DNA of 54,769 nt from Methanobacteriota archaeon (GTDB taxonomy: Archaea > Thermoplasmatota > Poseidoniia > Poseidoniales > Poseidoniaceae): NCBI GenBank assembly GCA_009937025.1, contig JAACDG010000070.1:1-54769 (forward strand). Direction: 5' to 3'. The position numbers were made by a program, and so were the translations under genes. Below are positions 4,888 through 54,769 of this stretch, piece after piece. Positions within the stretch are counted from its first letter, which is position 1. Every line of letters starts with the position of its first letter. Below the pieces are notes generated by a model. That model searched no databases, was not told where the DNA came from, and worked only from the letters and a program-made list of their open reading frames with translations.

Positions 4888-7800
4888 TTACTGCCGGTCT
4901 AACCATTGTTGGCCATAATGTTGCCACTGTTCCATTGTCCAACCTTCGGGCAATCCAGATGCTGGCAAAGGCGGACCTATCGAAGGTGCTGGCTCTTGAA
5001 GAGCAACAGGTGTTGGCATTGGCATCGGTTGTGGAATTGGAAGTAATGGCAGAGCCTTCGGTGGCATTCCTGCTGGAGGGAGTCCTTGTGGCATTGGGAG
5101 TGGCTTGAGAGATGCTGCTCCAGGTGGAAGCCCCATAGGTACGGCAGCAGGAGCAGTTGGCAAAGGCATTTGCAACGATTGAGCAAGCGCCGCTGCAATT
5201 TCATCAGACGATACTTCTCCACTCGCTATTTCATCAACAGCGTATCCAATGTCCAAAGCATCATCTCTTCGAGTGCCAAGATGATCTGGATTGACAAAGG
5301 CATCCGGTGCCACAAGTTCTTCTCCAGAGTCAGTTAATTCACCACTCTTTTTCATTCGTAGGGCTAGTACGACTGCACCTATGATGACAACACCTACCAA
5401 CGGCAAGGAAAGATAAAGTGGTAAGAAACTGAACAATCCTTTTGTCCCGGTCGCAGAATCGACAGATGATTCAATGGACAATGTTCCATAAACCGAATCT
5501 CCTGAATTCAATGTTATGGTCGTCATGACCTTTCCTTTTTGGGCGTTTTCGCTTGGTGTAAGTTCGACAACAAGAATTAGAACTTCGCCAACTGCAATTG
5601 AATCAACATTATTTGGTGTGCATGAAACAGACCAAGCCTTGGAAAGGTTACCATCTGCGTCTAAAACTTCACTGAGGACATCACCGCTTAACGGCACATT
5701 TCCGTCGTTTCGAATGACAATATTTTGACGGACAGTTTCTTCTCTTGAAACAAGGATAAACGGAGTGATGCTGGCATCCTCAACCGTAATATTCGCAAAG
5801 GATGATGCAAGAACTGAGACTTTGACGGACACTGAATATTGAATCATGCGCCCATCGTTATATCCAGATGCTGTGACAACCAATTCGAACGCCTCGGAAG
5901 TTGCAGGTGCATTGGCAGGAGGAATAAACCCAAGACGTACTGTTCGATTCTCTCTTGGCTCGAGATAGTTGCTTGGGTTTGCAAAACCGACTGTCCAACC
6001 ATCAGGAGCAAGTCCATTGCTCCAATTTAGCGTCAATGGAGCGTTACCTGTATTCGTAACGTTAAATTCTCCGAAGGAAAAGTCTGAGGAAATAACGGTT
6101 TCAATAACGCCAGATTCAGGACCGGTTAATTCCATTGAAAGGTCGTCTTTCACCTTGAGAACGGTCGTATTCGAAACAAATTGCTGGGCATTGAGTTCCG
6201 TCCGTATGACGAAATTATTTGTTTCGCCTTCCTCGGCAACGGGTGGTACTCCCAATACAAAATTGACTGTTGTAACTTCTCCGCCGGCCAAAGTAAGAGA
6301 AATCTGGCGACTGTCGAGTTGATCTTGATACTTGACCTGAATCGGCCAAAGAGGGTTGGAGGGTTGTATTATTACATCCAAATCTATTGCGGTATTGCCA
6401 GTGTTTTCAACAGTTAGATTGAGTGAAACTTGTTCGCCTGTATCAACCATGCAATTCCGATTGATTGCTGAAGGGCCAATTGGTCCGAGGTCATCATACA
6501 AATCTCCTTCAAAAGATTCCTGAGGAAGTACCAAGACATCAACGGATTGAGTAAAATTCATTTCAGCATCATTTTGTGAATTGACCCAACACGTTACTGT
6601 ATCGGTCGAACCAGAAACAGGAGCACCGTTAGAAACAGGGGGGACAAAGATGCGAATATACATAGGAAGAGACTCTTTGATGTTCAAAGGTTCAAATTCA
6701 AGTGTCGAAGAATTCGATGAGCCAAGCATAACTTGCCAACGATTTTCAGAGGTGCAAGATACGACATACTGCCCAGGAGTATTTCCAATGTTCATCACGG
6801 AGATAACGAAACCTGTTGAGTCTCCTGGTGCTGCAGATAAACCGCTTATTCCTGCTGCGCCAATGTTGACTGCATTCACTTCGGGAACAACGATGGTTAC
6901 ACGTTGTGTGTGAGATACAGTAGGTTGTGCCTGATATCGAGCGATGATATCAACAACAAAAGTTCCTGCCCGTGCATAACGAGGCGCAGAAGAATCAGAC
7001 AAGTCTGCATATTCATTCTCAAGGTGAACTGTAAGCATCTTGAAATCGCCTTCTTCACCTTGTCCTTCCACAATGTAAGGGCCAATCTCAGAAACCGTCT
7101 TGGTCCAATAATCTTCAGGAGCAAGTAAGAAATCGGGTCGCCCCGGTTGAGGCATTTGTACATTGGTTACCGAAAGAGTAACACTTTGTTGGCCTGTTCC
7201 TTCATGAAGAATGTGTATTGGAATATCAATGCCAGTGTCATTGAGTACATCGAAGACTTTCATTGCTGAATCTGCCCGTGCTTCCGGTGTCGTTGGGGCA
7301 ATTCCTGAGGCATCTAAAGCGACAACACGGACCCCAAGAGCTGTTACTTCTATGTCTTGAGTCCACACATTGTTGTTTACACCATTGACACCATCGTTCA
7401 TTTCTGGTACTTGATTGAGCGTATCAATACTGAGTCGTAATGAATGAGTGCCTGTTGAAGTAAACTGATGCTGAAGTAAAAACGAATCAACAATTCCTGG
7501 CCCAAGTCCTGGGCGGTCAGCATCGAATAATGTTTCATTCGTAGTAAGGTCTTCAAGGGTAACATGGAAGGTTCCAGAGGATAAAGTACCTTGATTAATC
7601 CAACCTAATTGTAAGGTGATTAAATCATTCTTGAGTGGTTCTTGTGATGAAGGAACGATGCTTCCATTATATGTTGCCAAATCGGATTGTGGGTTTGATG
7701 TAGCATTCGCAACCAAAACGAGTCCAAAGGATTGGGTGGTGCCTCCTCGATGCATTACTTTAACCTGCCATTGCCCAGATGCAGTAAGAACGCCTGGTGC

Positions 7801-9837
7801 AACTTTAATCCGTTCGACATTGTTGATGGTATCAGCAACACCACCTGTTGTCGAAAAGCCAGATGTGAAATCGTTACCAAGCCACTCGTTTCCAGATGGG
7901 TCAACGAGAATCAAATCCAAGTCATTCACCAATCGAGAATTCGCTTGAGCAGCGTTTGCACTCCCCTCCTCATCAGACCATACCAGCGTCATATCAATTC
8001 CATGACTTGGGTCAAGAGTAAATGCATAGAGTAATCCAAATCCAGCATCCAATTGTTTGTTGTGATCGATGAAAGTATCCAGAGGGGTTGCTCCATCCAT
8101 TGGTAAAACCGTTCTTTCAAGGTCGATTTGACCCCATCCTTCGAGAGCGTTTGGAATATCAGGAGCTCCCAAATCCGTTGCTCCATTGATGACAACTGCT
8201 TTGATTAAAGCTGCAGAGGGGGAGTTAATTCCCAGTTCCTCGCGCAAGAATTCACGCACAAGTGCTGTTGCTCCTCCAGCAATGGCAGTCGCATGTGAAG
8301 AACCAGAGAGCGACATGTAAAGACTACTACCGTCGGAATGTGTACCTGTGCCACATCCAAATCCAGTGGGGGATTTGGCTTCTTCTGCAAGTCCCGAACA
8401 AATGTCCATTCCCGGGGCAACAATGTCAGGCTTAATTCGACCATCGAGGCTTGGCCCTTGGCTCGAGATATTAGAAACACTGCCGGTTAATGCACCGGTA
8501 TGAGTTGTCCCAACTGCAAGAACGTTTTTCGCGGTTGCTGGAGCAGATACTTGAGACGACCCTTGGCTACCCCGGTCTCCAACTGAGAAGAGAGGTAGAA
8601 CAGTATTTTTGTCACTTACAAGCAAATCTACAGAACGTGAATCAGCGGTATAATGCCCATAATTTCCATTTGAGCCCCAAGCATTGATGGCGATACGAGC
8701 AGTTTTCTGTTCTGCATCGTTAAGTAAGTCGTAGATTGAACCAAGCCGACCAAAAACTCCGGTTGGGTCGTGTTCAAGTGCATACATGACGAGGTTAGCA
8801 GCAGGTGCAATACCTTGTGCTGATGTATCACCTGAGCCATCTCCAAGAGCGGAAAGAGTAACGTGGGTTCCATGCCCAGTATTGGTATCGGACGGTGAAG
8901 GGTCAAGTCCAAATTGGGTGTAAACACCTGCAACTCGACCGACGATATCAGGGTGATCTTGGTCCAACCCTGTATCTGTAATGGCAATTGTTTCACCAGA
9001 GCCGTCAAGAGTGAAAGGCGCATTTGTGGCGATACCAGTTTGGCCAATTATAGCACCAGCAACTGCATTGTGCAGGACAAGACCCGTTGTTGGCTCGGTC
9101 CAAATAATACGACCATCGTGCATGATATTGTTGAGAAGAAGTGATTGGAATTGAGAGTCAAAGTGTATTTCACACAATCCTACACCGCACCATGCCTCAT
9201 TCGCACCCATTTTGACTAAGTCGAGACTGAGGGTGTCAAAACCTCCGATAGCAAGGTCAGATGAAGGCACGAGTGCCAAATGGGTTACTGATGATGGTTC
9301 GAGAAGCGAGGAATGTATTCGCCAACCAGGGTGCTGTACGCCAGCCCAACGTACACGTTCATCGTTTTGTAACTCTTCAAGAGATGAGAGAGGGGGTGAA
9401 GCGAGGCGAATGAGCCAGCCTTCATCGGCAATAAAGTCCAAAGGCGTGATGGAATATTCCTTCACCAGTTGCTCAAGAACGACACCATCATGCTGATGCA
9501 ATTGAATCAATGCAAGAGCCGATTGAGCCGGGTCGTTCAGGTCCGTATATTGTGAATGCAAGTTTGGGCCATCAGAAACCAAAGGGTCAAATTCGCCGGA
9601 TTGGAGACGCAAAATCCCACTTGATGGACGCAATTCTACATCCAAAATGGGGATAGGTTCTGCTCGGTTCCAAAGAGTTGTAGCAAGTTCAAGGCGTTCC
9701 GATTGTGAAGTCTTGTTTGGCTCATCGAGTTGTAAATCCAAGACAGGAGTTGGCTCGGATTGGAGAACTGGACTTAGAGAAGTCAGTAACAGCAAGAAGA
9801 GCATCAAAACTGGGCGCCGCATTTCTTGCATGGTCAT
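4888..9837 (-). CDS. Giant membrane-anchored subtilisin-like serine protease
   Basis: This is a 1,649-residue exported protease of the S8 subtilase family. It has an N-terminal signal peptide (Leu-rich core about 8-25) and a propeptide-like region. The catalytic domain has Asp in ITDTGLDQDHPDI (about 290), His in GHGTHV (about 322) and Ser in SLSGSSHAT (about 515). A beta-sandwich about 590-710 resembles the C-terminal domain of KP-43-type subtilases. Several Ig-like/CARDB-type beta domains follow with NxS/T sequons. One membrane span lies near 1470-1500. A Pro/Met-rich cytoplasmic tail ends in GLPEGWTMEQWQHYG. Start codons at 9837, 9831 and 9822 are all possible. The likely role is degrading or processing proteins at the cell surface. 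Its tail motif recurs in two other proteins of this window. Confidence 0.88.
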   Translation of the reverse strand: MTMQEMRRPVLMLFLLLLTSLSPVLQSEPTPVLDLQLDEPNKTSQSERLELATTLWNRAEPIPILDVELRPSSGILRLQSGEFDPLVSDGPNLHSQYTDLNDPAQSALALIQLHQHDGVVLEQLVKEYSITPLDFIADEGWLIRLASPPLSSLEELQNDERVRWAGVQHPGWRIHSSLLEPSSVTHLALVPSSDLAIGGFDTLSLDLVKMGANEAWCGVGLCEIHFDSQFQSLLLNNIMHDGRIIWTEPTTGLVLHNAVAGAIIGQTGIATNAPFTLDGSGETIAITDTGLDQDHPDIVGRVAGVYTQFGLDPSPSDTNTGHGTHVTLSALGDGSGDTSAQGIAPAANLVMYALEHDPTGVFGRLGSIYDLLNDAEQKTARIAINAWGSNGNYGHYTADSRSVDLLVSDKNTVLPLFSVGDRGSQGSSQVSAPATAKNVLAVGTTHTGALTGSVSNISSQGPSLDGRIKPDIVAPGMDICSGLAEEAKSPTGFGCGTGTHSDGSSLYMSLSGSSHATAIAGGATALVREFLREELGINSPSAALIKAVVINGATDLGAPDIPNALEGWGQIDLERTVLPMDGATPLDTFIDHNKQLDAGFGLLYAFTLDPSHGIDMTLVWSDEEGSANAAQANSRLVNDLDLILVDPSGNEWLGNDFTSGFSTTGGVADTINNVERIKVAPGVLTASGQWQVKVMHRGGTTQSFGLVLVANATSNPQSDLATYNGSIVPSSQEPLKNDLITLQLGWINQGTLSSGTFHVTLEDLTTNETLFDADRPGLGPGIVDSFLLQHQFTSTGTHSLRLSIDTLNQVPEMNDGVNGVNNNVWTQDIEVTALGVRVVALDASGIAPTTPEARADSAMKVFDVLNDTGIDIPIHILHEGTGQQSVTLSVTNVQMPQPGRPDFLLAPEDYWTKTVSEIGPYIVEGQGEEGDFKMLTVHLENEYADLSDSSAPRYARAGTFVVDIIARYQAQPTVSHTQRVTIVVPEVNAVNIGAAGISGLSAAPGDSTGFVISVMNIGNTPGQYVVSCTSENRWQVMLGSSNSSTLEFEPLNIKESLPMYIRIFVPPVSNGAPVSGSTDTVTCWVNSQNDAEMNFTQSVDVLVLPQESFEGDLYDDLGPIGPSAINRNCMVDTGEQVSLNLTVENTGNTAIDLDVIIQPSNPLWPIQVKYQDQLDSRQISLTLAGGEVTTVNFVLGVPPVAEEGETNNFVIRTELNAQQFVSNTTVLKVKDDLSMELTGPESGVIETVISSDFSFGEFNVTNTGNAPLTLNWSNGLAPDGWTVGFANPSNYLEPRENRTVRLGFIPPANAPATSEAFELVVTASGYNDGRMIQYSVSVKVSVLASSFANITVEDASITPFILVSREETVRQNIVIRNDGNVPLSGDVLSEVLDADGNLSKAWSVSCTPNNVDSIAVGEVLILVVELTPSENAQKGKVMTTITLNSGDSVYGTLSIESSVDSATGTKGLFSFLPLYLSLPLVGVVIIGAVVLALRMKKSGELTDSGEELVAPDAFVNPDHLGTRRDDALDIGYAVDEIASGEVSSDEIAAALAQSLQMPLPTAPAAVPMGLPPGAASLKPLPMPQGLPPAGMPPKALPLLPIPQPMPMPTPVALQEPAPSIGPPLPASGLPEGWTMEQWQHYGQQWLDRQ

Positions 9838-28476: not shown

Positions 28477-28701
28477 TCATTCAGTTGCTTTACTTGCATT
28501 TGCTTGGAAGACTGTTAATTCAATGGTGATGTTGACTTCTTCCTCGTTATCGTTTTGACCTGGGATCGGTGATGATGCCCAGGATAAGATTTGTAATGGC
28601 AGCAACAGGAGCGAGGGATTCCTGTGCCATGACTGACCCTCTTTGTTCCATCCATATAATTCATTTCCGAAAGATAGGGTGCAGAAAGGATTTTCTTTCA
28701 T
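28477..28701 (-). CDS. Possible small membrane protein coupled to upstream gene
   Basis: This 74-residue reading frame starts with an ATG that overlaps the stop of the thrombospondin-repeat gene by four bases (ATGA), the usual arrangement for translational coupling in this window. It otherwise occupies a gap with no other gene. It shows an aromatic start (CTLSFGNELYGWNKEGQSW), one hydrophobic stretch (LLLLPLQILSWASS) and an acidic end. No family is recognised. The overlap and the lack of any competing frame argue for a real gene; its short length argues for caution. Confidence 0.42.
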   Translation of the reverse strand: MKENPFCTLSFGNELYGWNKEGQSWHRNPSLLLLPLQILSWASSPIPGQNDNEEEVNITIELTVFQANASKATE

Positions 28702-31463
28702 TCACGATTCTTAAGGTAATCTTCGCCATACCAAGCCCATTGGTCCATTGTCCAGCCAGCAGGAAGGCCTTCAGGGGGCAAAGGCGGAGTTGATGGGACA
28801 ACGGGAGCGGTGAACTGAACTGGAGCGTTCACGAGAGGAGGACTGTTCAGTGCATTGGATGGACTTCGACGACTCATCAGAGCAAAACCAACGAGCACCA
28901 TGAAAACAACTCCGAAGGCCACCAGAATAAATGTGGTAGGGAAGGACGAATCTTTCGAAGCAAGATGCCGTGAAGCATCCAGTGGGAAAGCGTCTGCTTC
29001 ATCTGACCAACCATCTCCGTCGCCATCAGGGCAACCGATGAGGTCTTGTTGAGAAGTCCCAGCGACTTCAGGACAATCATCACTCATATTCGTGCCGTTT
29101 TGGTCGGGATATCCGTCCTCATCGGAATCTGACCAAAATCGTTCATCGCTCGGGAAGATATCGAGATTATCATCCCAACCATCACCATCTGTATCAGGGC
29201 AGCCTAGACGTTGTTCACTTGAGAGACCAAAAAGTCCAGGGCAAGCATCGGGTAAATCGCCTGTTATTGAATCTCCATAACCATCTTGGTCAGCATCGAG
29301 GTGTTGAGTTGCGTCGTTTGGGAAAGCATCGATGGCATCTGACCATCCATCGCCATCTGTATCAAGACATCCAAAGACATCTTCTGATGAATTTCCTTCA
29401 ATCATTGGACAAGCATCGGGTTGAAATCCATCCGCAGCATCCCCGTAACCATCACCATCTTGGTCAGCATGCTGAGTGCTGTATGTAGTGAAGGCGTCAG
29501 CCCCTGAAGCCACAGTCCAATCCGCATCCGGATTAGACCAACCATCTCCATCTGAATCAATACAGCCAAGGCGGTCTTCTGTAGAGGTGCCTGGAACTGA
29601 TACACAGGAATCACCCTCAAATCCATTGATTTCATCTCCAAAACCATCACCATCAAGGTCGGACCATTGAGTTGCCTCGGCAGGGAATTCATCAACTAAA
29701 TCTGAATAACCGTCGTCATCCCAATCAGCGCAACCTATGAGGGTCCCTGCATCGCTGGTACCAGCATTTACTGGACAGTCATCAATACTGTCGGAAAAGC
29801 CATCATTGTCGTCATCAAGGTCTTCTGAGATATCTTCACAACCGTCTTGGTCGAGGTCATTGGTGGTGGAAGAAAAGAAAGAGGATGGGCTTGTTGGACA
29901 GAGGTCCATTTCGACGGATGAAATACTACAGAACCAAAACCCTTCAGATATTGATGCATCACAAATACGGTCGTTATCATCATCATAGTCTTCTCCAGAA
30001 TCTCTGCAACCATCGAAGTCATAATCGGAGGATGTGGTCGAAGTCCATCCAAGGTCGCCGGTCGCACAATAGTCTACAGAATCAAAAACACCGTCGTTAT
30101 CATCATCGGAGTCTTCGGTGAGGTCGGCACAACCGTCCGTATCATGGTCTGTTGCCGAAGAAGAAATCCAACTCAAATTACCAATATTACAGTCATCGGC
30201 AAGGTCAAGGATACCATCGTCGTCATCATCATCATCACACACATCTCCAAGTGCATCGCCATCGTAATTGGCTTGAGAAGGATTAGCGATCAATGGGCAA
30301 TTATCAACATCATCTCCAATTCCATCTCCATCTTCATCCATAAAGGGGTCGATTCGAACGACTTCATCTTGGCCATTATCGACGTAGTAGAGATGACCAT
30401 TTGGACCAATTTCAAGACCCATTATGGATGATGCTGTGGTTTGAATCGTATCGGCCACTGAAGCACTTTTTCCATCGGAATTCAGGTCATATGCAACGAT
30501 CTTTCCATTACCATTGAGGGAAACAAAGAGTTGGTCGCCATCAAGAGCGATTCCTGAAGGTCGGTTGAGCCCAGAGGCCAAAACACCCCATTCAATTCCA
30601 GTAATGCTTGAATATTCTTCAAGTGGTTCCAATCGTGATGAATCGCTCATGATGTCCTGAGTATTGTATGATGTATCATCGGTATTGACCCATAACACAC
30701 GGTTTGCTCCCGCATCTGCGATGTAAAGAATTCCTGAATCTTGGTCCAAAATCATGTGTCCGGGAACTCCAAAAGAATGTGTGAGCTGAACATCGACATA
30801 TCGACGAACAATTCCATCCGAGTGGTCGTCATAGCCTGTGTCATGGTCCATTTGGAAATCATAATACACGAGTTCCCCGTAATAGCCATCATTGTACCAA
30901 TATTTGTTGGCAGAGTCGTGAGCAATACCAACCCCATATGGAGATTCATGATTCATATCAATATGACTGCCAAGAAGACCATTGCCATTGTTTTGATTTT
31001 CCACCGCAAAGTGATTCAATGAAGATGGCCACAATGTTGGACCCATGAAATTGTTCGGCGCGCCTTGACCGCAAAATGTATTTCGCGTTTCTTGGGCAGA
31101 ACCCCATTGCCAATCGAATTCGGGATGATATGCCCCAAATGCAATTGAACTTACTTCTTCGAGGAAATGATTTCGATTCGAATCTTGACGATTCTGGGAA
31201 GTTTGGTTTTCAAGCCCTGTGTTTTGGACAATCGTTATGCTGTCTGTTGCTCGGTTAGCCACCCATAATTCGTTTGCTCGACCAGGATGGAATTCCAAAT
31301 CACGTGGGTCAGAAAGGGCATCGGAGGAGTCTGCTATGACCACTTCATCGAAGCCTACACCAAATTGAGATACAACCGGTGCATCTTTTGAAGCAAAGGC
31401 ATGTGAAGGAATAGAAAAAAGCAGAAGGCTTAGGAGAATTATGCCGATTTGCTTATTCATCAT
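28698..31463 (-). CDS. Membrane-anchored beta-propeller and thrombospondin type 3 repeat protein
   Basis: The protein has about 921 residues from the ATG at 31463 (31460 is equally possible). A signal peptide (IGIILLSLLLFSIPSHAFA) comes first. An NHL-like beta-propeller, about residues 30-370, follows with motifs such as LNRPSGIALDGDQLFVS and MGLEIGPNGHLYYVDNG. Then come about ten calcium-binding thrombospondin type 3-like repeats of the form DxDGDGxxDxxD. Near the C-terminus lie one membrane span (FILVAFGVVFMVLVGFALM), a Pro-rich linker and the end motif GLPAGWTMDQWAWYG. The signal-first start is preferred over 31559. A TATA-like TTTAATAA lies about 40 bases upstream. The likely role is a calcium-stiffened surface protein; its ligand is unknown. 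Confidence 0.83.
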   Translation of the reverse strand: MMNKQIGIILLSLLLFSIPSHAFASKDAPVVSQFGVGFDEVVIADSSDALSDPRDLEFHPGRANELWVANRATDSITIVQNTGLENQTSQNRQDSNRNHFLEEVSSIAFGAYHPEFDWQWGSAQETRNTFCGQGAPNNFMGPTLWPSSLNHFAVENQNNGNGLLGSHIDMNHESPYGVGIAHDSANKYWYNDGYYGELVYYDFQMDHDTGYDDHSDGIVRRYVDVQLTHSFGVPGHMILDQDSGILYIADAGANRVLWVNTDDTSYNTQDIMSDSSRLEPLEEYSSITGIEWGVLASGLNRPSGIALDGDQLFVSLNGNGKIVAYDLNSDGKSASVADTIQTTASSIMGLEIGPNGHLYYVDNGQDEVVRIDPFMDEDGDGIGDDVDNCPLIANPSQANYDGDALGDVCDDDDDDDGILDLADDCNIGNLSWISSSATDHDTDGCADLTEDSDDDNDGVFDSVDYCATGDLGWTSTTSSDYDFDGCRDSGEDYDDDNDRICDASISEGFWFCSISSVEMDLCPTSPSSFFSSTTNDLDQDGCEDISEDLDDDNDGFSDSIDDCPVNAGTSDAGTLIGCADWDDDGYSDLVDEFPAEATQWSDLDGDGFGDEINGFEGDSCVSVPGTSTEDRLGCIDSDGDGWSNPDADWTVASGADAFTTYSTQHADQDGDGYGDAADGFQPDACPMIEGNSSEDVFGCLDTDGDGWSDAIDAFPNDATQHLDADQDGYGDSITGDLPDACPGLFGLSSEQRLGCPDTDGDGWDDNLDIFPSDERFWSDSDEDGYPDQNGTNMSDDCPEVAGTSQQDLIGCPDGDGDGWSDEADAFPLDASRHLASKDSSFPTTFILVAFGVVFMVLVGFALMSRRSPSNALNSPPLVNAPVQFTAPVVPSTPPLPPEGLPAGWTMDQWAWYGEDYLKNRE
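28970..30345 (-). repeat. Tandem Asp-rich calcium-loop repeats (thrombospondin type 3-like)
   Basis: Within the propeller protein gene, units of about 90-130 bases repeat about ten times. Each encodes DxDGDG loops followed by D(A/E)FP or a Cys-containing loop. Early units have two-cysteine TSP3-type loops (DNCPLIANPSQ, DDCPVNAG). Later units alternate ACPxxxG and GCxDxDGDGW. The repeats are diverged in DNA sequence but regular in protein. Such loops bind calcium in thrombospondins and in OmpA-like proteins. Confidence 0.75.
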
Positions 31464-31601
31464 GTCAATCCGAAAATGCACTGTGCTTTGATACCTTTCA
31501 TTATTAAATCTAAATGACATCAATAACAATCCTTCCAAAGAGACTACTTCCGACCCCATTCACATTGGAATTCTCGCTAATAATTGATTGAAAGTAGGGG
31601 A

Positions 31602-38896: not shown

Positions 38897-41800
38897 TCAC
38901 TTTTTCATTGCTTCAACGTATTGCCAGCCAAAGTGGTTCCATTGGTCTTGGGTCCATCCCTGAGGCAGTCCAGTCGGTGGAATTGGAGGTGGAGCCGGTG
39001 TTGTAACTACAGGTTTTGGCTGCGCTATTGGTGCAGGAGACGCTTGTGGTAGTGGAAGGGCCAAGCCAGGCGGAGGAGGTAAATTTTCATCGATATCAGG
39101 TAATGTTTTCGAGTGATTAAGTTCATCGAGAACTTCAGCAGTTTGGTCTTCTGCACCGCCTTCAAGTTCACCTTCACGGATTCGGCGATTCATGACTAAG
39201 AGCCACATGGCAAGGCTCAGAGAGAGCAATGCAATCAGATAGAGAACGATACTAAACGTTCCTTGCTGTGCTTGAAGGGCAAGAGCCTCCCCGTCACGGA
39301 TAGTCTGCTCTTTCACCAGCAATGGGTCGAGCGTCTTACGGTCCATTTCAACTTCATCAACAAGGACTAAAAGTCGGAATTCAATACTTTCACCAGCCTC
39401 GACATTGGCGATTGTTGGGAGTGTTCCTGTAATAACTGCGCCCGCTGTAGCAACCAAGTCCACCCGTGCTGTGTCTTCCCAGAAACCACCGTCAACTGCA
39501 CGCTGTAAGACAAAGGCTACATCGCCTTTCCCACCGAGATTACGAACTTCAAAGTTAAGTTCGACGGATTGTTGAGTTATTGGACTTGGGTCATCCCAAG
39601 ATAAAGAACTGGTGGCGGCATTCAAATCAATACTTGGCCCTAGAAGAGCTAATGACCAAGAGGCAATAGGTTGGGAAAGCGAGTTTCCAAGCGTGTTGAA
39701 AGGATTACCTGCTGAATCAGAACCAGAAACCCAAACATCCACCATATAGGACGGCAATAATGTCGTTGCTCCTGCATCGGTGAGGTCGAGTGTACCTGTC
39801 CAGAAAAATTGCTGCTCGAAAGGAGTCGTGTCCGGCAAAGGCATACTGCCCCGAGAAATTTCTGCTTCTCCTGCTCGAACACGATAATGCAAAACGGCAG
39901 GCTCATCAAGCGCAAAGCCATGGTCGTCAATTGTTTCAAGCATAACTAACAAGTCTCCACAAGCCCCAATTGACAACTCTGAACCTGCTGAAACTTCATC
40001 CAAAGCAACAGTTGCAATCGTTGGACGAGAACTGTCGACTGCAAGACGTACACGTTGTAGCGTAGGTGTTTCATCCATAGCTAAACCAGGTAAATCATCC
40101 AGTTCGAGACGGAGGTCGAGGTGGCCAGAAGGAACAGAGGGTATCAAGAGGTCGAGGCTAAACTCTCCATCTCCACGGGTAGAAGTTTTCCAGGTGTTAT
40201 CATAATCTCCAAAGACCACATCAAATGCACCCGCCGGAGCAGGTGTTTCATCTTCGGAAAAGAGAACTCGACCATTAACTCGTAATGCTTGTCCTGCACC
40301 AATCAACGTCTCTTCGAATTCAGGATTATAGTGGTTTGTTCCATCTCGAAGTTCTACAGCACGAATATGCCCCTCCATGGTATCAAATCTGAAATCGTTG
40401 TCAAGACTCCAAGCATCGTTTCCTAAACCAGCAGTAGCTTCGAAACAAGGTGTTTCTTCACCTTCATTACATGGCAAATCAGTAACAAGGATTTTTGGAA
40501 TAATTTTACTTATCCCATTTGTATCAAAGGATTCAGGGAATGTCCATGTTAATTGGAAACGTGCCAAGATTTTGATGATGCTGTTGTTATTTTCATCTAA
40601 ATCTACACTTGAATACAGATTTGAAACTGCTATATTGGCTGAACCAGACTCCATAACCGCAACAGGGTTCCCATCTGGTCCTTTCATCAAGGAAATGAAG
40701 ACTGAAGTTTCATCGTCATTAAAATTGCCACCAAGTGCGAGTTGAATATACTGGATATCTTGCCATCCATTCCGGTCGGAAAGAACAATTTGAGCAGTAT
40801 AAGGGATTCCTGGGTGCAATGGTGCTTGGTCATCATGCCCAAGAATTGTGGAATTATCAAGGTCGAGTTCAGGCTCAAATTCAACGCGTATTTGGTATGT
40901 ACCCAAATCATTATCCCAATTTGGAACTTCTTCTCCAGGCACATATCCGCATGCGATATTGCTGTCAGGACAGACGGGTCCACCACCCATTGCAATGGCA
41001 TTGTCTTGAGCGTCTTTACCGGTGATAAAGTAGGATACTCGTTGACCATGTTGAAGCATTGAATCATCGATGAGACCGTCAAAAATATGCATTCCACCGG
41101 CTTGAGTATCGGGGGATGTGAGGATTTTCATTTCATATTCGTCTGAATTTGGCAGGCCATCAAAATTATAATCGCTGCAGCCAAGAGATTCACTTGCTTT
41201 ACAACCAATCCAGTAATTGAGAGTCAATTGGTTTGGAGGGTCAACCGAATCTTGAACGAAGATACTCACTGCTTGGCCTCCAGGCGCAGGAGGTCCCGCA
41301 TGTCGTTCACTTCCATCACCCGGGGTCGAGGACAACACAAGAGGAGAATTACCATCCAAAACCAGTCGGATTGTATTGTATCCTGGGTTCGAATAAACTG
41401 AACCGTTCTGCATTTGTATTGCTTCGACGTAGAAGATCATTCCACCTGGAGAGGATTCCAGTGGAGACTGGAACGTAATATTGTATTCTCCAAACGCAGG
41501 GTTTTGTTCTTGTGCCAGAAGAATCGGTTCGCCTATTGGAACTCCGTCATATGTGACATTTTGTCCTAATATGCGCAAGAAGAATTGTCCTGCAAGTGGA
41601 GTAAGTTGAGAATTCTGGAAATAGATTCCTCCTGTGAAAGAGAGATTAAATCCACCTCGAACCCAATCTTGAGAATACAATTCTCTACCTGTTTCTTCAA
41701 AGACTCGCAAGCCATCGAGTTGAATATCATTTTCTACTGTTATGTCCAAATCTTCAGTTTCCCATGCAGCGACTGCTTGACCTAAGTCATCTTCGACCGT

Positions 41801-44302
41801 GATAAGTGCCTGCATTTTAAATTCATCATCCCAAGTCCAATTCACGGAAACTGGTATACGTATTGAGACTATACCATTGGAGTCTGTTGTCGATGTACAA
41901 TTTGCTGTATCGAATTGGACGATACCTCCCGCATCGCTGACAACCGAACATGTATCTCCACGTTGCCAATCAAATGCAGGGTTTTCCCCATAGGAATTGT
42001 TCAGTGCAATAAGAGACTCAGTTACTCGGTCGACATCATCGCCCGGTGCGATACGTACCTGTAAATTACGAGAGACACCGTCTGGAGAGAGAAGACCCCC
42101 CTCCAATGATGCATCAATCGCACGGGTTTGCATCTTGTAAGCAATATCGATGTTCGAGATTTTAACTCTGCCCGAAGTTGCTGCTTTCACAGCGATTGGG
42201 ATGAGCACATCTCCATCACCGTTTTGTGGAATATGTGAATTAAACGCTTGAACAAGTGTAGGTTGGTTCTTCACATCGACATTCACTACTGAATTATCAC
42301 TGGCGACCACCGCTGATTCATTGAGGAAGAGGAGAGACTCCCAATCCCAAATTAAATCGTTCCCGATGTCTAATTTCGGGCGGTCAGGGTAACCTTCCTC
42401 ATATTCCATCACAATCGAATCAATAAGAGGGGATAAAGTAACATCTGTGGTTGACAAACTGACAGCATATCGAATCGTATCTCCTGCTTCAGTTGATGGA
42501 AAACTGACTTCCTGATTATTTAATGCAGGAAGCCAAGTAGAACCGTTATCATTTGAAACTTGAACAATCATGGATGTGCCCGAGGGAATATCTGCGACCC
42601 AATTAGGCCTTACTTTACCGACTTTAGTGCCCGTATTATGGGGCGGTGAAGTCCAACTACCTGTCGGGGCATATTCAGTTGAATATTCAACATCCACCCA
42701 CCATGAAACTGCAGTGGAACCAATTAACTGCGCTTTCCAAACTAATTCAGTTCCGGGGTAGTCAAAGTGAATAGTAGAATTCGAAGTAACAGATTCCCAA
42801 TGAGTGCCATTGTCAGCCGAGACCCAGTAATCGACACGGTCTCCGATGGATGCTGCAGACCAATAGGTTTGCATATTTACACTCAAAATTGGGTCTCCTG
42901 ATTCAGTAACAGGTCCAAACCATGTTGTCGTTCCTGGGGCTGGAGTTGTTTTGTATTGCCATCCAGTACCATATTCTCGATAATATAATGTTGCTGAGGA
43001 CCATGTCGAGTATCCACAGTCAACAGTCACGAATCGTGTACCGTCGAATTGAAGTCCATACCCTAGAGCAGAAAGCAAACGTGTTCCCGATTGAGGAACC
43101 AGCGAAGTCGAAGTTCCGGAAATAGTCCAAGCTTCGAGTTGATCTTTGTCTTGACTGGAAGAACCCTTTTGGCAACGCATGAAGAATGTGCTTTCATTGA
43201 CTTCTAAGCCACGAACTTGTTGGCCAGTTTTACCACATTCCCATGAACTACCGGATGAAGAGGAAAAGGAAAACATGTCTTGTCCACGGGTATATTGCCC
43301 ATCGGCTTGGTCTCCAAAGGTGTAAGGCACAATTCGGCGTTGGGCGTTATGAACAATCCAAACCTCTTCTGTATCTCGGTCATAAGCAATGGCGGTATAG
43401 TCGGAATATTGCGGTGAAACATCATATGAATCAATACATTTCCAAGTATCGTCCCTCGAAATATCCATCTCAAGAACACGGTGATATTGTGTCGGAGCAG
43501 ATGAAGAGTAGTGGTAACGGTAGCCAGAAAGAATAGCGAACATTCGTTCATCATCGGTAATGGTCCAATCTCGGAAACCATAACTACCATAGTATGAACT
43601 TGAATGTAAATTTGGAAGAGTGCACTGTCCTTGATCTAAAGTTATAACCGATTCTTTCGTTGCATTATTTGGATAAAGTCGATGAACGATGTTGTGGAAA
43701 GAAGATGAACTCCACGTTGACATGAAAAGCCAATCATGGTGTTTGAGAATTGCACCTTGACCTTGTTTCATGAGGCCGGATGAAGTCTTGAGCGCTTGTT
43801 GTGAAAATCTGTTTTCAGTTGAGTTTGAGGTGTGTGGTTGGCGAACTGCATAGGAGCCATTGTCAAGCCATGCATCGGAAGCAGAATGTTCAACTTCATC
43901 GTAACCATGTGGGAAAAATGTTGTTGAACGATTGGAAAAGGCAAGACTCAAATCACCACTTCGCGCATCAGTTGCTGAAGTTGAACCTTCAATCCATTCA
44001 TCTCGATCATCGGTTACGGTTTGACTCCATCCGGTAGCAGAGGCGCCAGAAAGCGTCATTGAAACATCGGTAACCAATGCCCCCTTGGGCAGTGAAATCA
44101 TAGCCCCAGTATCGGGGTTTGCACCTTGATACAGTGCAACATATTCACTTGAACCATCATGAAGGGAATAGATATGTCTCGAGACTCCACCTGCCTCTGC
44201 AGAACCAACAACAACATCGGCCATCGGCCCCATAGGTGCTAAAACCATGATGAAAAAGAGCACGAACATTATTCCGCGGCCGTTCGATAATTCGTTCTGC
44301 AT
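38897..44302 (-). CDS. Giant membrane-anchored ectodomain protein with GWTxxQW tail
   Basis: From the ATG at 44302 the protein has 1,801 residues. A signal peptide is present (GIMFVLFFIMVLAPMGPMA). The ectodomain first looks like a beta-propeller or sheet-rich region with many Ser, Trp and Tyr (to about 480). Repeated Ig/fibronectin-like beta domains then run to about 1670, including FSEDETPAPAGAFDVVFGD-type units. A single span (IVLYLIALLSLSLAMWLLVM) leads to an acidic and Pro-rich tail ending GLPQGWTQDQWNHFG. A start at 44374 overlaps the upstream stop by four bases (ATGA). The 44302 ATG has a G-rich site before it and gives a normal-length signal peptide. The role is probably surface adhesion or scaffold. 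Confidence 0.82.
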   Translation of the reverse strand: MQNELSNGRGIMFVLFFIMVLAPMGPMADVVVGSAEAGGVSRHIYSLHDGSSEYVALYQGANPDTGAMISLPKGALVTDVSMTLSGASATGWSQTVTDDRDEWIEGSTSATDARSGDLSLAFSNRSTTFFPHGYDEVEHSASDAWLDNGSYAVRQPHTSNSTENRFSQQALKTSSGLMKQGQGAILKHHDWLFMSTWSSSSFHNIVHRLYPNNATKESVITLDQGQCTLPNLHSSSYYGSYGFRDWTITDDERMFAILSGYRYHYSSSAPTQYHRVLEMDISRDDTWKCIDSYDVSPQYSDYTAIAYDRDTEEVWIVHNAQRRIVPYTFGDQADGQYTRGQDMFSFSSSSGSSWECGKTGQQVRGLEVNESTFFMRCQKGSSSQDKDQLEAWTISGTSTSLVPQSGTRLLSALGYGLQFDGTRFVTVDCGYSTWSSATLYYREYGTGWQYKTTPAPGTTTWFGPVTESGDPILSVNMQTYWSAASIGDRVDYWVSADNGTHWESVTSNSTIHFDYPGTELVWKAQLIGSTAVSWWVDVEYSTEYAPTGSWTSPPHNTGTKVGKVRPNWVADIPSGTSMIVQVSNDNGSTWLPALNNQEVSFPSTEAGDTIRYAVSLSTTDVTLSPLIDSIVMEYEEGYPDRPKLDIGNDLIWDWESLLFLNESAVVASDNSVVNVDVKNQPTLVQAFNSHIPQNGDGDVLIPIAVKAATSGRVKISNIDIAYKMQTRAIDASLEGGLLSPDGVSRNLQVRIAPGDDVDRVTESLIALNNSYGENPAFDWQRGDTCSVVSDAGGIVQFDTANCTSTTDSNGIVSIRIPVSVNWTWDDEFKMQALITVEDDLGQAVAAWETEDLDITVENDIQLDGLRVFEETGRELYSQDWVRGGFNLSFTGGIYFQNSQLTPLAGQFFLRILGQNVTYDGVPIGEPILLAQEQNPAFGEYNITFQSPLESSPGGMIFYVEAIQMQNGSVYSNPGYNTIRLVLDGNSPLVLSSTPGDGSERHAGPPAPGGQAVSIFVQDSVDPPNQLTLNYWIGCKASESLGCSDYNFDGLPNSDEYEMKILTSPDTQAGGMHIFDGLIDDSMLQHGQRVSYFITGKDAQDNAIAMGGGPVCPDSNIACGYVPGEEVPNWDNDLGTYQIRVEFEPELDLDNSTILGHDDQAPLHPGIPYTAQIVLSDRNGWQDIQYIQLALGGNFNDDETSVFISLMKGPDGNPVAVMESGSANIAVSNLYSSVDLDENNNSIIKILARFQLTWTFPESFDTNGISKIIPKILVTDLPCNEGEETPCFEATAGLGNDAWSLDNDFRFDTMEGHIRAVELRDGTNHYNPEFEETLIGAGQALRVNGRVLFSEDETPAPAGAFDVVFGDYDNTWKTSTRGDGEFSLDLLIPSVPSGHLDLRLELDDLPGLAMDETPTLQRVRLAVDSSRPTIATVALDEVSAGSELSIGACGDLLVMLETIDDHGFALDEPAVLHYRVRAGEAEISRGSMPLPDTTPFEQQFFWTGTLDLTDAGATTLLPSYMVDVWVSGSDSAGNPFNTLGNSLSQPIASWSLALLGPSIDLNAATSSLSWDDPSPITQQSVELNFEVRNLGGKGDVAFVLQRAVDGGFWEDTARVDLVATAGAVITGTLPTIANVEAGESIEFRLLVLVDEVEMDRKTLDPLLVKEQTIRDGEALALQAQQGTFSIVLYLIALLSLSLAMWLLVMNRRIREGELEGGAEDQTAEVLDELNHSKTLPDIDENLPPPPGLALPLPQASPAPIAQPKPVVTTPAPPPIPPTGLPQGWTQDQWNHFGWQYVEAMKK

Positions 44303-44370
44303 GCCTGCCCCCCCATACAGGCTTAGGACCTTTGGTCTTTGAACCATGCGGATACCGGTGAGACGTAAAA

Positions 44371-47300
44371 TCATCCAGTTTGACGAGAATCATAGCGTAG
44401 AGGCGATGAGTCGCCACGGATGCCGTCTTGCTCATCATCATGCACCTCGAACCAATCTACCATCCAATCACCGTCTGTATCCCAATTGGTTGGGTCCGTT
44501 CCTTCCGCAATGTGGTCATTGTCTAAATCAAGTATATACCAACCGAATTCGTGTTCCCCAACTGCTCGAACTGGAGATGTGTCGGGTGAACCAACATAGT
44601 AAATATCCCAAGCATCTGTTCTGTTACCTGCCATCAGAACTTCATCATCGCTTGAATCAAGAACAAGGAAGTTGGTATCTTTGTCGTCGACCAGGTAGGC
44701 AAAGCGTATATCATTCGCAAAGGATTTGTCCAGCTTCATGTAATTTTCAGTACTTGTGCCAGAGGAATCGATTTTCAAAAGAGCAGCTCGTAATTGCCAC
44801 CATTCCAGTACGATTTCACCATCATAAATCATGCCACTAAGGCGAACAGCATTCGGAGACGAAAGATCTGAGTCTGTAATACCATAGAATTCTTGGAAAT
44901 TCGTATATGGCTCATACACACATCCAGCACCGCTACAGTCCCAGTTTCCATCTTGGTCGGGATCGTAATTTGCATCAACCGGGTCTGCAGGATTCAAAGT
45001 AAACCAAGAGGAAGAAAAATCAGGGCGAGAAAGAATTCCACCGGCGCCTTGTTGGGATAATGGCAAACAGGAACTTGTGTCTGTAGAACAAGCGCCACCA
45101 GTCGCAGCATCAATCCAAATCACTTGAATTTGTAACAAAGAACTGTAATTATCATTTGATTCATTCCACCCTCTCGAATATTCATACCAGTCAGGCAGCA
45201 TGTCTCCATCCGAATCGTTGTCACTTGGATTGATTCCATACTTGAAAACTTCACGTCCATCTGACAAATTGAAATCTTGTTCGTGGTAGACTACCACGCC
45301 ATTGGATACAACGGTCGAATAAGACACACTGTCGCTGTCCGAATCATTTGAATCCGGACGTGTTTGATTGTCCCATTCCATCCAATTTGTGAATGGTAAA
45401 TCTCCGAGACCAGATTGAATAATTGACGAACCTGGGGAAAATACCCGGCCCGACCAAGTTCCTTGCTCGGCAGGTTGGTCGAATACTGTGCGGTCATACC
45501 AACCATCATGGTCTCCATCATAATCTACATCCCACGGATTCAATGGGTTCGCAGCCCAATGGTTGATTGTAGTTACATCTTCCATTCCATAGAGTGCAAA
45601 GCAATATTCCCAGCCATCTTCGATTCCATCAGAGTCCGAATCGACATTTGTTGGGTCAGCAATTCCGAGTAAAGTTCGATTAAAGTTGTCTTCATTGTAC
45701 TCATTAATCATCTCCATACGGTCAGCACTTGATTGACTCTTTGAAGTAAAATCAGTATAGAGCGCTTGCTGTGCTTGTTGCGGTGATAATCCGAGTTCTT
45801 CCATGTAAGCATCCATGGCATCATCTCCGAAATTGATAATTCCATCTGCAACAGGAACTGAGAAACGCTCAGTGTATTTACCATATGTGCGTGATTCCCA
45901 TTCACGTAAATTCGAGAAACGTTCATCCATAGAAATATTGCCATCACCGTCGCAGTCGAAACTATCCCCATCTGTGTCAAGGTTGACATCACTGTCGATA
46001 AGTGGGTTCATGCTCCAACGGTTTTGCTCTAAGTCCCACTCGGTAAACCAGTATTCAAACCCGTCATACATTCCATCATCATCAGTATCTGGATTGGTTG
46101 GGTCTGACATGCCAAGAAGTGTCGAAAGAATTGCATTTGGAGGAACTCCTGCCTGCCAATCGTTGAAATCACTTAACAAACGCTTACCTCGAGTTTCTTT
46201 GGTAATGAGAATATTAAACACTCGTTGAGCCTTTTCTGTTGGTTGTTGAGCATCTCCATCAATGTGCAGAAGTGGGGCATCAGAAGGATGGTCTAATCCA
46301 TTGACTGGCGCCTCGATTGCGATAGCAAACTCTTGACTATCCGTGAGACCATCGCCATCACCATCAAACCCTCCATCACCCGGTACAAGCGGGTTGAGTG
46401 TCCAAGTTTCGGCGGTCAAATTCCACGATGTGAACAATTGCTCAATTCCATCGATCATACCATCGCCATCTGTGTCAACATTATTCGGGTCCGAAGTCCA
46501 TCCCGTCAAATTTACTTGGTCAGAAGTGATGAAAGAGCCAAAAGAGAATTCAACAGTATTTCCAGGCCATTGTTGCAGGGCAAACGCAGAACCAACCGTC
46601 GTTACAAACCATTGCGGTGATGACCGGTTCTGGTCGGTTTCACTGTATTCCGGTGCGATTGCATTGTATTCCTCCCAATTGGCCATTCCGTCATCATCGG
46701 CGTCTTCCCATCGGTCTGCAGGGTCCAAAGGATTCAGAGTCCATGCATCCTCGAGAACATTCCACCGAGCAAACCAAACTTCCCAGCCATCAGGCATTCC
46801 ATCTGAATCTGAATCTGCATTCAACGGGTCTGAAGACCCGACGTCGGTCAGGGACTGAAGGGCCGTAACCGAACCAGAGGCTCGTTCTCCAAAGTTTGCT
46901 TCAGGGATTCCAAACGAGCTAACATTGATGAATAAATCAGTGGAAAATCCTTGTGGGATAGGCACACCATCGAGTGTTTGATTCCCATTAAAAAGGTCAG
47001 AACGAATGTGGAATTCAAGATAGTTTACAAAGGCTTCAGAATCTTCCAAGACTCCATTGTGATTGATATCATAACCATCACCATCGGGATTTGCAAAGAG
47101 ATCAGATGCGTTGAGTGGATTCACACCTTGCCGTGATGGGTCCCAAGTACAGGAGCCACCGGATTCCCAACCGTCCGGCAATGTATCACCATCTGAATCA
47201 ATATTATTTGGGTCTGGCTCAAACCACTCGAGACTTGAGTTAATCGTTTCACCATGTGATTCGAGCAAGAGGCCTTCGATGGCTGCACCACGGACAAGCG

Positions 47301-50124: not shown

Positions 50125-50357
50125 TTTGTGACCTGCCTGCAAAGCATACGCTTCGCAAGTGAGCAACCCTCTCAAGCCACTTATGAGGATGATGGAGCGA
50201 TGTTCGGACAAGTCATCATTCATTGACTGCAAAAAATCCATCCAAACCATCGAATATTGAGCGTCGAATCTTAAGAGAAAGTGGGCGAATTCAAGAATTG
50301 CAACGAAGTTATGCGGTTTCTTCAAAGGCCGCTCGCGACCGGTGGATGTTGATTGAG

Positions 50358-51224: not shown

Positions 51225-52310
51225 ATGATGCCGAAGTGTGTGCCGACTGTGAACGCACAAGCAAGCACTGTTTTGCGCCCGTCCCTCCGTCGGGACCAAA
51301 GGGCAGTAAGCGAAGTGCTTGGAGTCATCATGATGCTGGCCATGGTCATCACAATCATGGGAGGGGTTTGGGTCTTTTTGAGCCCTTATGTTTCCGATTT
51401 TGAAGACAATACAAATTGGAACAGTGCAAACGGAATTGCTGAGCGATTTCAAGACCGAATCGATGTTGCAGGAAGTGCACCAAATGGGACGGGCATTCGA
51501 CATACACTTGCTCTACAGTCGACCATGATTCAACCGATTGAAAAAGTCGAAACTTGGACGATTGCTGCTGATTTGACACCTTACGATTCGGTGGTTGTAC
51601 GTGATGTGAACAGTACGGCATTTGGTATTATGTCAATGAATGAAACTGCACGCAGCATCACGATTGAATCCGAACTGGGCATGGAAAGTTATCTCTTCGA
51701 AGCATCTCACTTAGAGGTCATCGTGAACCACACATCATCTCAGCAACATTGGCGGTCAGTTACGGTTTATGATGCGGATGGAAATGCAATTCACCGAAGC
51801 GTAACCTATCTTATCTCAGGCATTCAGATATCAACATTCTTGGGAATGGGAGAGCATGAGATTGCTTTGATGAATGACGCCCGTGTTGAACGTTTTCCGA
51901 ATGAGCCCTGGAAAGTCTCCCAATTTCCAAATATTGAAATCGATACTTTGGTCAATGGTGAACTCCGTCTTTCCTTAGTCCTTAATGATGTTCGAATTAA
52001 TGGCACACTCGGTTCGGGGAGCAGGGTCGGCATGAACATGCTTTCACTTGGCCCAATGACCTTGTTTACTGGACAAGCATACAATGTGAAATTCACAGTT
52101 GTTAACTCTCTTAATGACTTGATTACCCCTCAATACCATGACCGATTTTTGGAGGAATATACACTGAACAGGGCCTCTGGAACTTTGGATTCCTATATCG
52201 GCTATGCGCCTTACATGAGAGCAAGTGGCGCTGACGGATTTACTGTGGAAACGCAAGGGGCACAACTGTTCTTAGAAGTCGATGTTAAACGCGTGGAGGT
52301 CTCCAGATGA
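51225..52310 (+). CDS. Class III signal peptide (type IV pilin-like) protein, first of three
   Basis: The 361 residues include a prepilin-type leader. RRDQRAVSEVLGVIMMLAMV has the basic residues, the Ala cleavage site and the hydrophobic helix of archaeal pilins; the SEVLGVI core is typical of them. A beta-rich head of about 300 residues with NxS/T sequons follows. It is larger than ordinary archaeal pilins. The N-terminal leader of about 27 residues from the ATG at 51225 is somewhat long; a TTG at 51273 would give a more usual length. The next gene starts within its stop (ATGA), so the pair is coupled. It is probably processed by an archaeal prepilin peptidase. Confidence 0.82.
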   Translation: MMPKCVPTVNAQASTVLRPSLRRDQRAVSEVLGVIMMLAMVITIMGGVWVFLSPYVSDFEDNTNWNSANGIAERFQDRIDVAGSAPNGTGIRHTLALQSTMIQPIEKVETWTIAADLTPYDSVVVRDVNSTAFGIMSMNETARSITIESELGMESYLFEASHLEVIVNHTSSQQHWRSVTVYDADGNAIHRSVTYLISGIQISTFLGMGEHEIALMNDARVERFPNEPWKVSQFPNIEIDTLVNGELRLSLVLNDVRINGTLGSGSRVGMNMLSLGPMTLFTGQAYNVKFTVVNSLNDLITPQYHDRFLEEYTLNRASGTLDSYIGYAPYMRASGADGFTVETQGAQLFLEVDVKRVEVSR

Positions 52311-54517: not shown

Positions 54518-54769
54518 GATGCCATGAATTGAAGCAAGACCAACGTGCTGCAGCAACAGAATTGGGGTACATTTTTACTTTCCTTCTTGGGGTGCTGCTT
54601 CTCACAATGTTCAGTCTGTGGGCGTATGAAATTGAAACTGCAACACGTGAACGTTGGAATGAAAATGCAATTCAATCGAACATGGATGACCTCGCTGCTG
54701 CCGTGGAAAGAGCTGATGAAGCAAGTCGAATGGGTTCAGTTGATTATGCCGAAAAAGTAGTTTGGCGAC
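54514..54769 (+). CDS. Pilin-like protein, third of three, cut by window end
   Basis: An ATG overlapping the previous stop (ATGA) opens a frame that runs off the window. It starts MRCHELKQDQRAAATELGY and continues with a hydrophobic helix (IFTFLLGVLLLTMFSLWAY), a class III leader and stalk like those of the two genes upstream. An acidic helix then begins. Only 85 codons are visible. Coupling to its neighbours makes it a third subunit of one filament. Confidence 0.75.
   Translation, partial: MRCHELKQDQRAAATELGYIFTFLLGVLLLTMFSLWAYEIETATRERWNENAIQSNMDDLAAAVERADEASRMGSVDYAEKVVWR

Follow-up and report, generated by a model that had tools for sequence, protein, structure and literature searches.

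A C-terminal module of about 28 residues, PP[LIV]PxxGLPxGW[TS]x[ED]QWxx[YF]Gxx[YW][LI], usually closes surface proteins whose external regions represent about ten unrelated architectures, and it is both order-wide in and limited to the Poseidoniales. This tail, which follows a membrane span and is predicted to lie in the cytosol, could act as a small docking module through which surface enzymes and adhesins are brought together, a reading that we regard as evenly poised between right and wrong. The analysis began from a window of 54,769 nucleotides (the whole stretch of DNA that was analysed), which belongs to a genome of 1.88 Mb that is 83% complete.

The shared ending and its bearers

A sequence-only reading of the window had described one and the same ending on three giant proteins with unrelated outside domains. 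The ending is indeed present in all three on the reverse strand, as read from the window translation: GLPEGWTMEQWQHYGQQWLDRQ in a surface subtilase (4891-4956), GLPAGWTMDQWAWYGEDYLKNRE in a TSP3-repeat protein (28701-28769) and GLPQGWTQDQWNHFGWQYVEAMKK in a giant ectodomain protein (38900-38971), each directly followed by the stop (Table 1). By hydropathy, the three proteins have one layout: a hydrophobic N-terminus leads into a very long external portion, and a single C-terminal span is followed by basic residues, a Pro-rich linker and, last, the common tail. The outside parts show no mutual similarity (BLASTP, E<=1e-3). The three bearers were correctly picked, but they are an undercount, as the genome encodes 11 proteins with the canonical tail and one with a divergent tandem (doubled) copy.

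When the tails are aligned, conservation reaches about seven residues upstream of GLP (PP[LIV]Pxx); P, G, L, P, G, W, Q, W and G are invariant within the module, and T and Y are nearly so. In a permissive profile scan of six genomes, true members scored E values of 6e-19 to 1e-9 and the next match stood at 0.06 or worse, a gap that makes membership independent of the threshold. The motif is far beyond chance.

Table 1. Coordinates of tail-bearing proteins and their features, given for the window unless a locus is named
Feature	Coordinates	Strand	Evidence
Surface subtilase, 1649 aa, tail-bearing	4888..9837	-	ORF and translation; Peptidase_S8 E=4e-38; two hydrophobic spans, N-terminal and C-terminal
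Subtilase, predicted C-terminal membrane span, residues 1474-1492, then RMKK	5362..5418	-	hydropathy 2.53
Subtilase, tail module PPLPASGLPEGWTMEQWQHYGQQWLDRQ plus one preceding residue; GLP starts at 4956	4891..4977	-	profile E=6.8e-18
TSP3-repeat protein, 953 aa, tail-bearing	28698..31559	-	TSP_3 E=2.5e-5, 0.7 bit below curated cut-off; MtsC-like TSP3 E=1e-17
TSP3-repeat protein, predicted C-terminal membrane span, residues 877-895	28875..28931	-	hydropathy 2.88
TSP3-repeat protein, tail module PPLPPEGLPAGWTMDQWAWYGEDYLKNRE plus one preceding residue; GLP starts at 28769	28701..28790	-	profile E=2.8e-17
Giant ectodomain protein, 1825 aa, tail-bearing	38897..44374	-	ORF and translation; no Pfam domain above cut-off
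Giant ectodomain protein, predicted C-terminal span, residues 1709-1727, then basic residues	39194..39250	-	hydropathy 2.61
Giant ectodomain protein, tail module PPPIPPTGLPQGWTQDQWNHFGWQYVEAMKK; GLP starts at 38971	38900..38992	-	E=9e-9; hydropathy
Tandem-module bearer	L029 5951-11203	+	divergent doubled module
Tandem-module bearer	L176 9928-15216	-	divergent doubled module

Across bearers, the ectodomains comprise a subtilase, TSP3 repeats, an arylsulfotransferase-like domain, PKD/CARDB repeats, LamG with PA14, and several without a Pfam match. Those of the window's own genome are mutually unrelated at E<=1e-3 (BLASTP), save for one paralogue pair and one shared TSP3 stretch.

Two further features of the window were recorded. 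A giant Asp-rich repeat protein (44371-50325, reverse strand), for which no C-terminal span is predicted, is encoded directly upstream of the giant tail-bearing protein, and the overlap of its stop with the first ATG of the latter suggests that the two form a coupled pair. At 51225-54768 on the forward strand, three consecutive genes encode proteins that start with a short charged leader and continue into a hydrophobic stretch (RDQRAVSEVLG..., RDEHAVSAAVA... and QDQRAAATELG...), and these starts resemble archaeal pilin-type signal peptides.

Distribution

Poseidoniales, as Marine Group II (MGII), have been described as the most abundant planktonic archaea in ocean surface waters (PMC6461757), and a further source describes the group as yet uncultivated (PMC9723583). 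In a first draw of genomes from the phylum, all 81 Poseidoniales were positive for the module (42 from the window's own family and 39 from the second family), and none of 211 other genomes was, including six from the sister family of the class. A second draw gave 317 positives among 318 Poseidoniales and none among 72 others, and the single motif-negative Poseidoniales genome is 67% complete; the genomes sampled are mostly incomplete metagenome assemblies. Copy number averages about 10 per genome in the window's own genus, where one single-contig genome (G015) has 10, and ranges from 1 to 7 in the second family, in which all 11 sampled genera carry the module. Going by the titles of matching loci, the window's own family is probably the Poseidoniaceae and the second family the Thalassarchaeaceae. 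Beyond the phylum, the distribution comes from one scan across 84,980 species, in which the best 80 loci among the matches listed bear titles of Poseidoniales, MGII or, in general terms, Euryarchaeota/Thermoplasmatota, and weaker matches elsewhere are possible. A viral or phage origin was considered and rejected, with none of 47 pattern-matching stretches on viral contigs confirmed and no match among phage records.

Position, topology and predicted shape

A membrane span is predicted by hydropathy 32-148 residues (median 73) before the motif in 144 of 144 distinct tails, and the protein ends a median of 25 residues from GLP. The N-terminus is hydrophobic in 103 of the 107 full-length bearers. 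Compared with the residues that precede the span, those that follow it carry a higher net charge in 104 of the 144 tails and a lower one in 31, a bias that is consistent with a cytosolic tail, where topology is predicted from hydropathy and charge only and both signal peptides and spans are judged by hydropathy alone. The 144 tails were picked by match score, and so are biased towards good matches; the counter-check is a permissive scan of five Poseidoniales genomes, which returned no convincing soluble or internal copy, just as none was present among 143 retrieved reading frames. The earlier caveat that the motif might turn up widely in soluble proteins or at internal positions was thus not borne out. 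The main exception to strictly terminal placement is the second gene of an adjacent PKD paralogue pair, whose product continues for 30-60 further residues to a conserved LLDDLD[LF].

This acidic type of ending was also looked at by itself. The whole genome contains just two instances of DDLD[LIF] followed by a stop, both in type I membrane proteins, namely an 808-aa protein in the window (14894-17320, forward strand) and the PKD paralogue (L024 3581-7327, reverse strand), whose orthologues keep LLDDLD[LF] downstream of the GLP module. The acidic ending is a candidate for a second tail signal, less common than the first. Another anchoring style is seen in the same neighbourhood as a tail-bearing gene, where an adjoining gene encodes a surface protein of about 850 aa that ends just past its span with MGRRD or DRRD (L028 3533-6112, reverse strand; L168 6739-9267, forward strand).

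AlphaFold modelling from 40 tails predicts an extended Pro segment followed by one helix (residues 24-37 of 38) and no strand, with a pLDDT of about 90 from residue 11 onward, and the invariant residues would fit a helix that, in this predicted fold, is N-capped by Thr and has an aromatic face. The tandem module belongs to a LamG/PA14 family of about 1750 aa that ends in IPEGWTxEQYxxWLxGPxPEGWxxxQW; it was found in 31 of 36 genomes of the window's own family at E<=1e-11 and in none of the second family at that level, and it is predicted to form a helical hairpin (pLDDT 90.5). Foldseek found no match in the PDB to the single or the tandem model, which is weak evidence given that both are very short.

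Selection and loss

Second-family relatives of the subtilase, family 1, family 18 and the TSP3 protein also bear the tail, and for at least these four the module therefore predates the split between the two families. Among the 11 copies in the window's own genome, the invariant Gly, Leu, Pro and Thr are each encoded by four different codons, and selection therefore acts at the protein level. The same codon variation rules out recent DNA copying or gene conversion.

The module has been cleanly lost in one lineage. In the Thalassarchaeaceae genus g9, family-1 orthologues with about 30% identity over the entire ectodomain terminate immediately behind the Pro-rich linker and lack the module, and the same genomes retain it on other proteins; the module is therefore detachable. 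This is a natural tail deletion, and it shows that the tail is dispensable for some bearers. Gain of the tail could not be timed in the sister family, because no credible orthologue of the family-1 ectodomain was found in 12 of its genomes; the first 70 residues of the family-1 protein alone made too weak a query. Taken with the position after the span, the unrelated ectodomains and the clade-wide conservation, this loss supports the proposal of the sequence-only reading that a conserved, recognised signal sits at the inside C-terminus.

In a separate observation, a second conserved and predicted-cytosolic stretch, VANSMYGGAxxIFQQP, was noted in the linker of family 18 and of second-family members of family 1 (L022 1406-4843, forward; L174 6842-10285, forward; L182 8178-11651, reverse; L222-L225). 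The ectodomains of these two families are unrelated, and the stretch is retained even where the GLP module has been lost.

A candidate docking module and its alternatives

In the mechanism that we favour, the flexible Pro-rich linker of type I membrane proteins would serve as a tether that keeps the module at the cytosolic face, with the extended PP[LIV]PxxGLPxGW segment leading into a Thr-capped helix, one face of which would carry W, Y, G, W/Y and L. We infer that it would bind one common cytosolic or inner-membrane partner, such that one module would have one reader and many bearers, and that ectodomains serving different ends, such as proteolysis, arylsulfotransferase-like activity or adhesion, would be kept or gathered in the same place or assembly. 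Sorting, docking and controlled release had all been suggested from the sequence; docking is the best remaining option, no result pointed to controlled release, and sorting in the archaeosortase or sortase sense is not supported, with the motif on the predicted cytosolic side and no exosortase above cut-off in the Poseidoniales sampled.

The suggested search for a co-occurring partner gene family came back empty: no gene family adjoins more than one ectodomain family, except around the adjacent PKD paralogue pair and cluster-split members, and each ectodomain family has its own conserved neighbour genes. Phylogenetic profiling was likewise uninformative, because essentially every Poseidoniales genome has the motif (only one of 318 is negative, and that one is incomplete) and presence or absence cannot single out a partner.

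The main rival to docking is self-association, in which the aromatic helices of different surface proteins would bind one another and cluster them in the absence of an adaptor; we hold this to be unlikely. A conserved family with two divergent tandem modules and a confidently predicted hairpin is what would be expected if modules can pair. The tail also stays constant while its bearers differ, and its conserved W, Y and G share one face of the helix. However, the tandem repeats are shorter and diverged, their model shows intramolecular packing only, and a test of the SHOCT domain, which is C-terminal and about as short, showed no oligomerisation (PMC3581485). It is rather improbable that the tail is an export, insertion or quality-control signal, through which a chaperone, protease or insertion factor would read the cytosolic end and license very long secreted proteins. 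Such a role would suit a C-terminal tag, which is made last, and bearers that are nearly all very long (about 800-1800 aa), but bearers of only about 375 aa exist (L028, L168 and L184), the tail is absent from both the 1959-aa secreted neighbour (44371-50325) and the 808-aa type I protein (14894-17320), and the family-1 orthologues of g9 do without it.

Quite improbable, in our estimate, is a regulated-release or degradation tag, whose end would recruit a protease for shedding or breakdown of the protein; degron activity is conceivable for an aromatic C-terminus, but the module need not be terminal, as seen in the PKD paralogue family, and the bearers have no linked gene family in common. Docking specifically to the archaellum or its motor is very doubtful: Rinke and colleagues proposed an adhesive role for the flagella operon of this order (PMC6461757), but the operon occurs in only half of the Thalassarchaeaceae genera (PMC6461757) and the module in every genus of that family that was sampled.

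The module marks a set of surface proteins that the Poseidoniales treat alike, which makes the search for one common partner practical, and it offers an annotation tag for many hypothetical giant proteins. Being present in nearly all Poseidoniales genomes and not found in the sampled relatives, it touches on how MGII organise proteolysis and attachment. To our knowledge, many unrelated ectodomains sharing one cytosolic recognition tail would, if true, be unusual among prokaryotes.

Comparison with known systems

Searches of Pfam, NCBIfam and the PDB gave no family match above cut-off for the module, and hmmscan of 11 tails against Pfam, within the HMMER filters, gave none at E<=10; a described domain family with known function, which had been held to count against a novel signal, was thus not found in Pfam or NCBIfam. 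In the open literature searched, neither the string GWTMEQW nor a description of the tail was found.

One likeness in overall logic is to the PGF-CTERM, PEP-CTERM, MYXO-CTERM and LPXTG tags, where, as here, a short C-terminal signature recurs on numerous secreted proteins that are unrelated to one another and that each combine an N-terminal signal with a single C-terminal span. In archaeosortase-type tags, however, the order is motif, span and short basic end (PMC11980579), whereas in the Poseidoniales the signature follows the span and a linker of 32-148 residues, is predicted to be cytosolic and has no basic end; the motif lay behind the span in all 144 tails. In addition, Exosortase_EpsH (PF09721) was absent above cut-off from 24 Poseidoniaceae and 15 Thalassarchaeaceae genomes, with a positive control in M. 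jannaschii. A sorting tag of the archaeosortase, exosortase or rhombosortase type is accordingly most improbable, and it was rejected on topology and on the lack of an exosortase above cut-off. Exosortase homologues above cut-off do occur in two sister-family genomes (G295 and G298), with none in the Poseidoniales sampled.

Some small domains resemble the module in part. The start of WW domains is similar (LPxGW/LPEGW), with weak PDB matches to Itchy (E=0.7) and a Yorkie homolog (E=1.7), but the likeness ends after 9-11 residues and the rest of the module is predicted to be helical; a WW domain is marked by a three-stranded sheet with two conserved Trp and a C-terminal Pro, and the module gave no Pfam match and no predicted strand. 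Tandem tails gave weak hmmscan matches to the MbtH-like family (PF03621) in 9 of 25 members (best E=0.003), at 17.3 bits against a curated cut-off of 27, and unlike that family they are predicted to be all-helical and sit on membrane-protein tails rather than being free-standing. The SHOCT domain (PF09851), which comprises about 30 residues, lies mostly within 50 residues of the C-terminus and occurs in many architectures (PMC3581485), is similar in size and in its predominantly C-terminal location, and a G-x-T-x-E-x-aromatic resemblance can be seen by eye. SHOCT differs in having two helices, whereas the single module has one predicted helix and an extended Pro segment and only the tandem form has two; the tails gave no SHOCT profile match at E<=10, and the module, confined to a single archaeal order, is in every case preceded by a membrane span.

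A further parallel, offered as a works-like comparison with no claim of homology or sequence relation, is with the tails of the apicomplexan adhesins TRAP and MIC2, type I proteins with varied ectodomains in which a short cytosolic end with a critical Trp provides the link to machinery inside the cell (PMC2688672). In TRAP the tail is acidic and its penultimate residue is Trp, whereas the Poseidoniales tail consists of a Pro segment and a helix with two to three Trp; in both, a type I topology (here from hydropathy) is combined with a Trp-bearing, predicted cytosolic end common to different ectodomains. By extension, and more tentatively than for docking itself, an order-specific cytosolic tail-docking system might gather giant exoenzymes and adhesins through one mini-domain into an organised attachment-and-digestion surface, and might thus be a prokaryotic counterpart of adaptor-read receptor tails.
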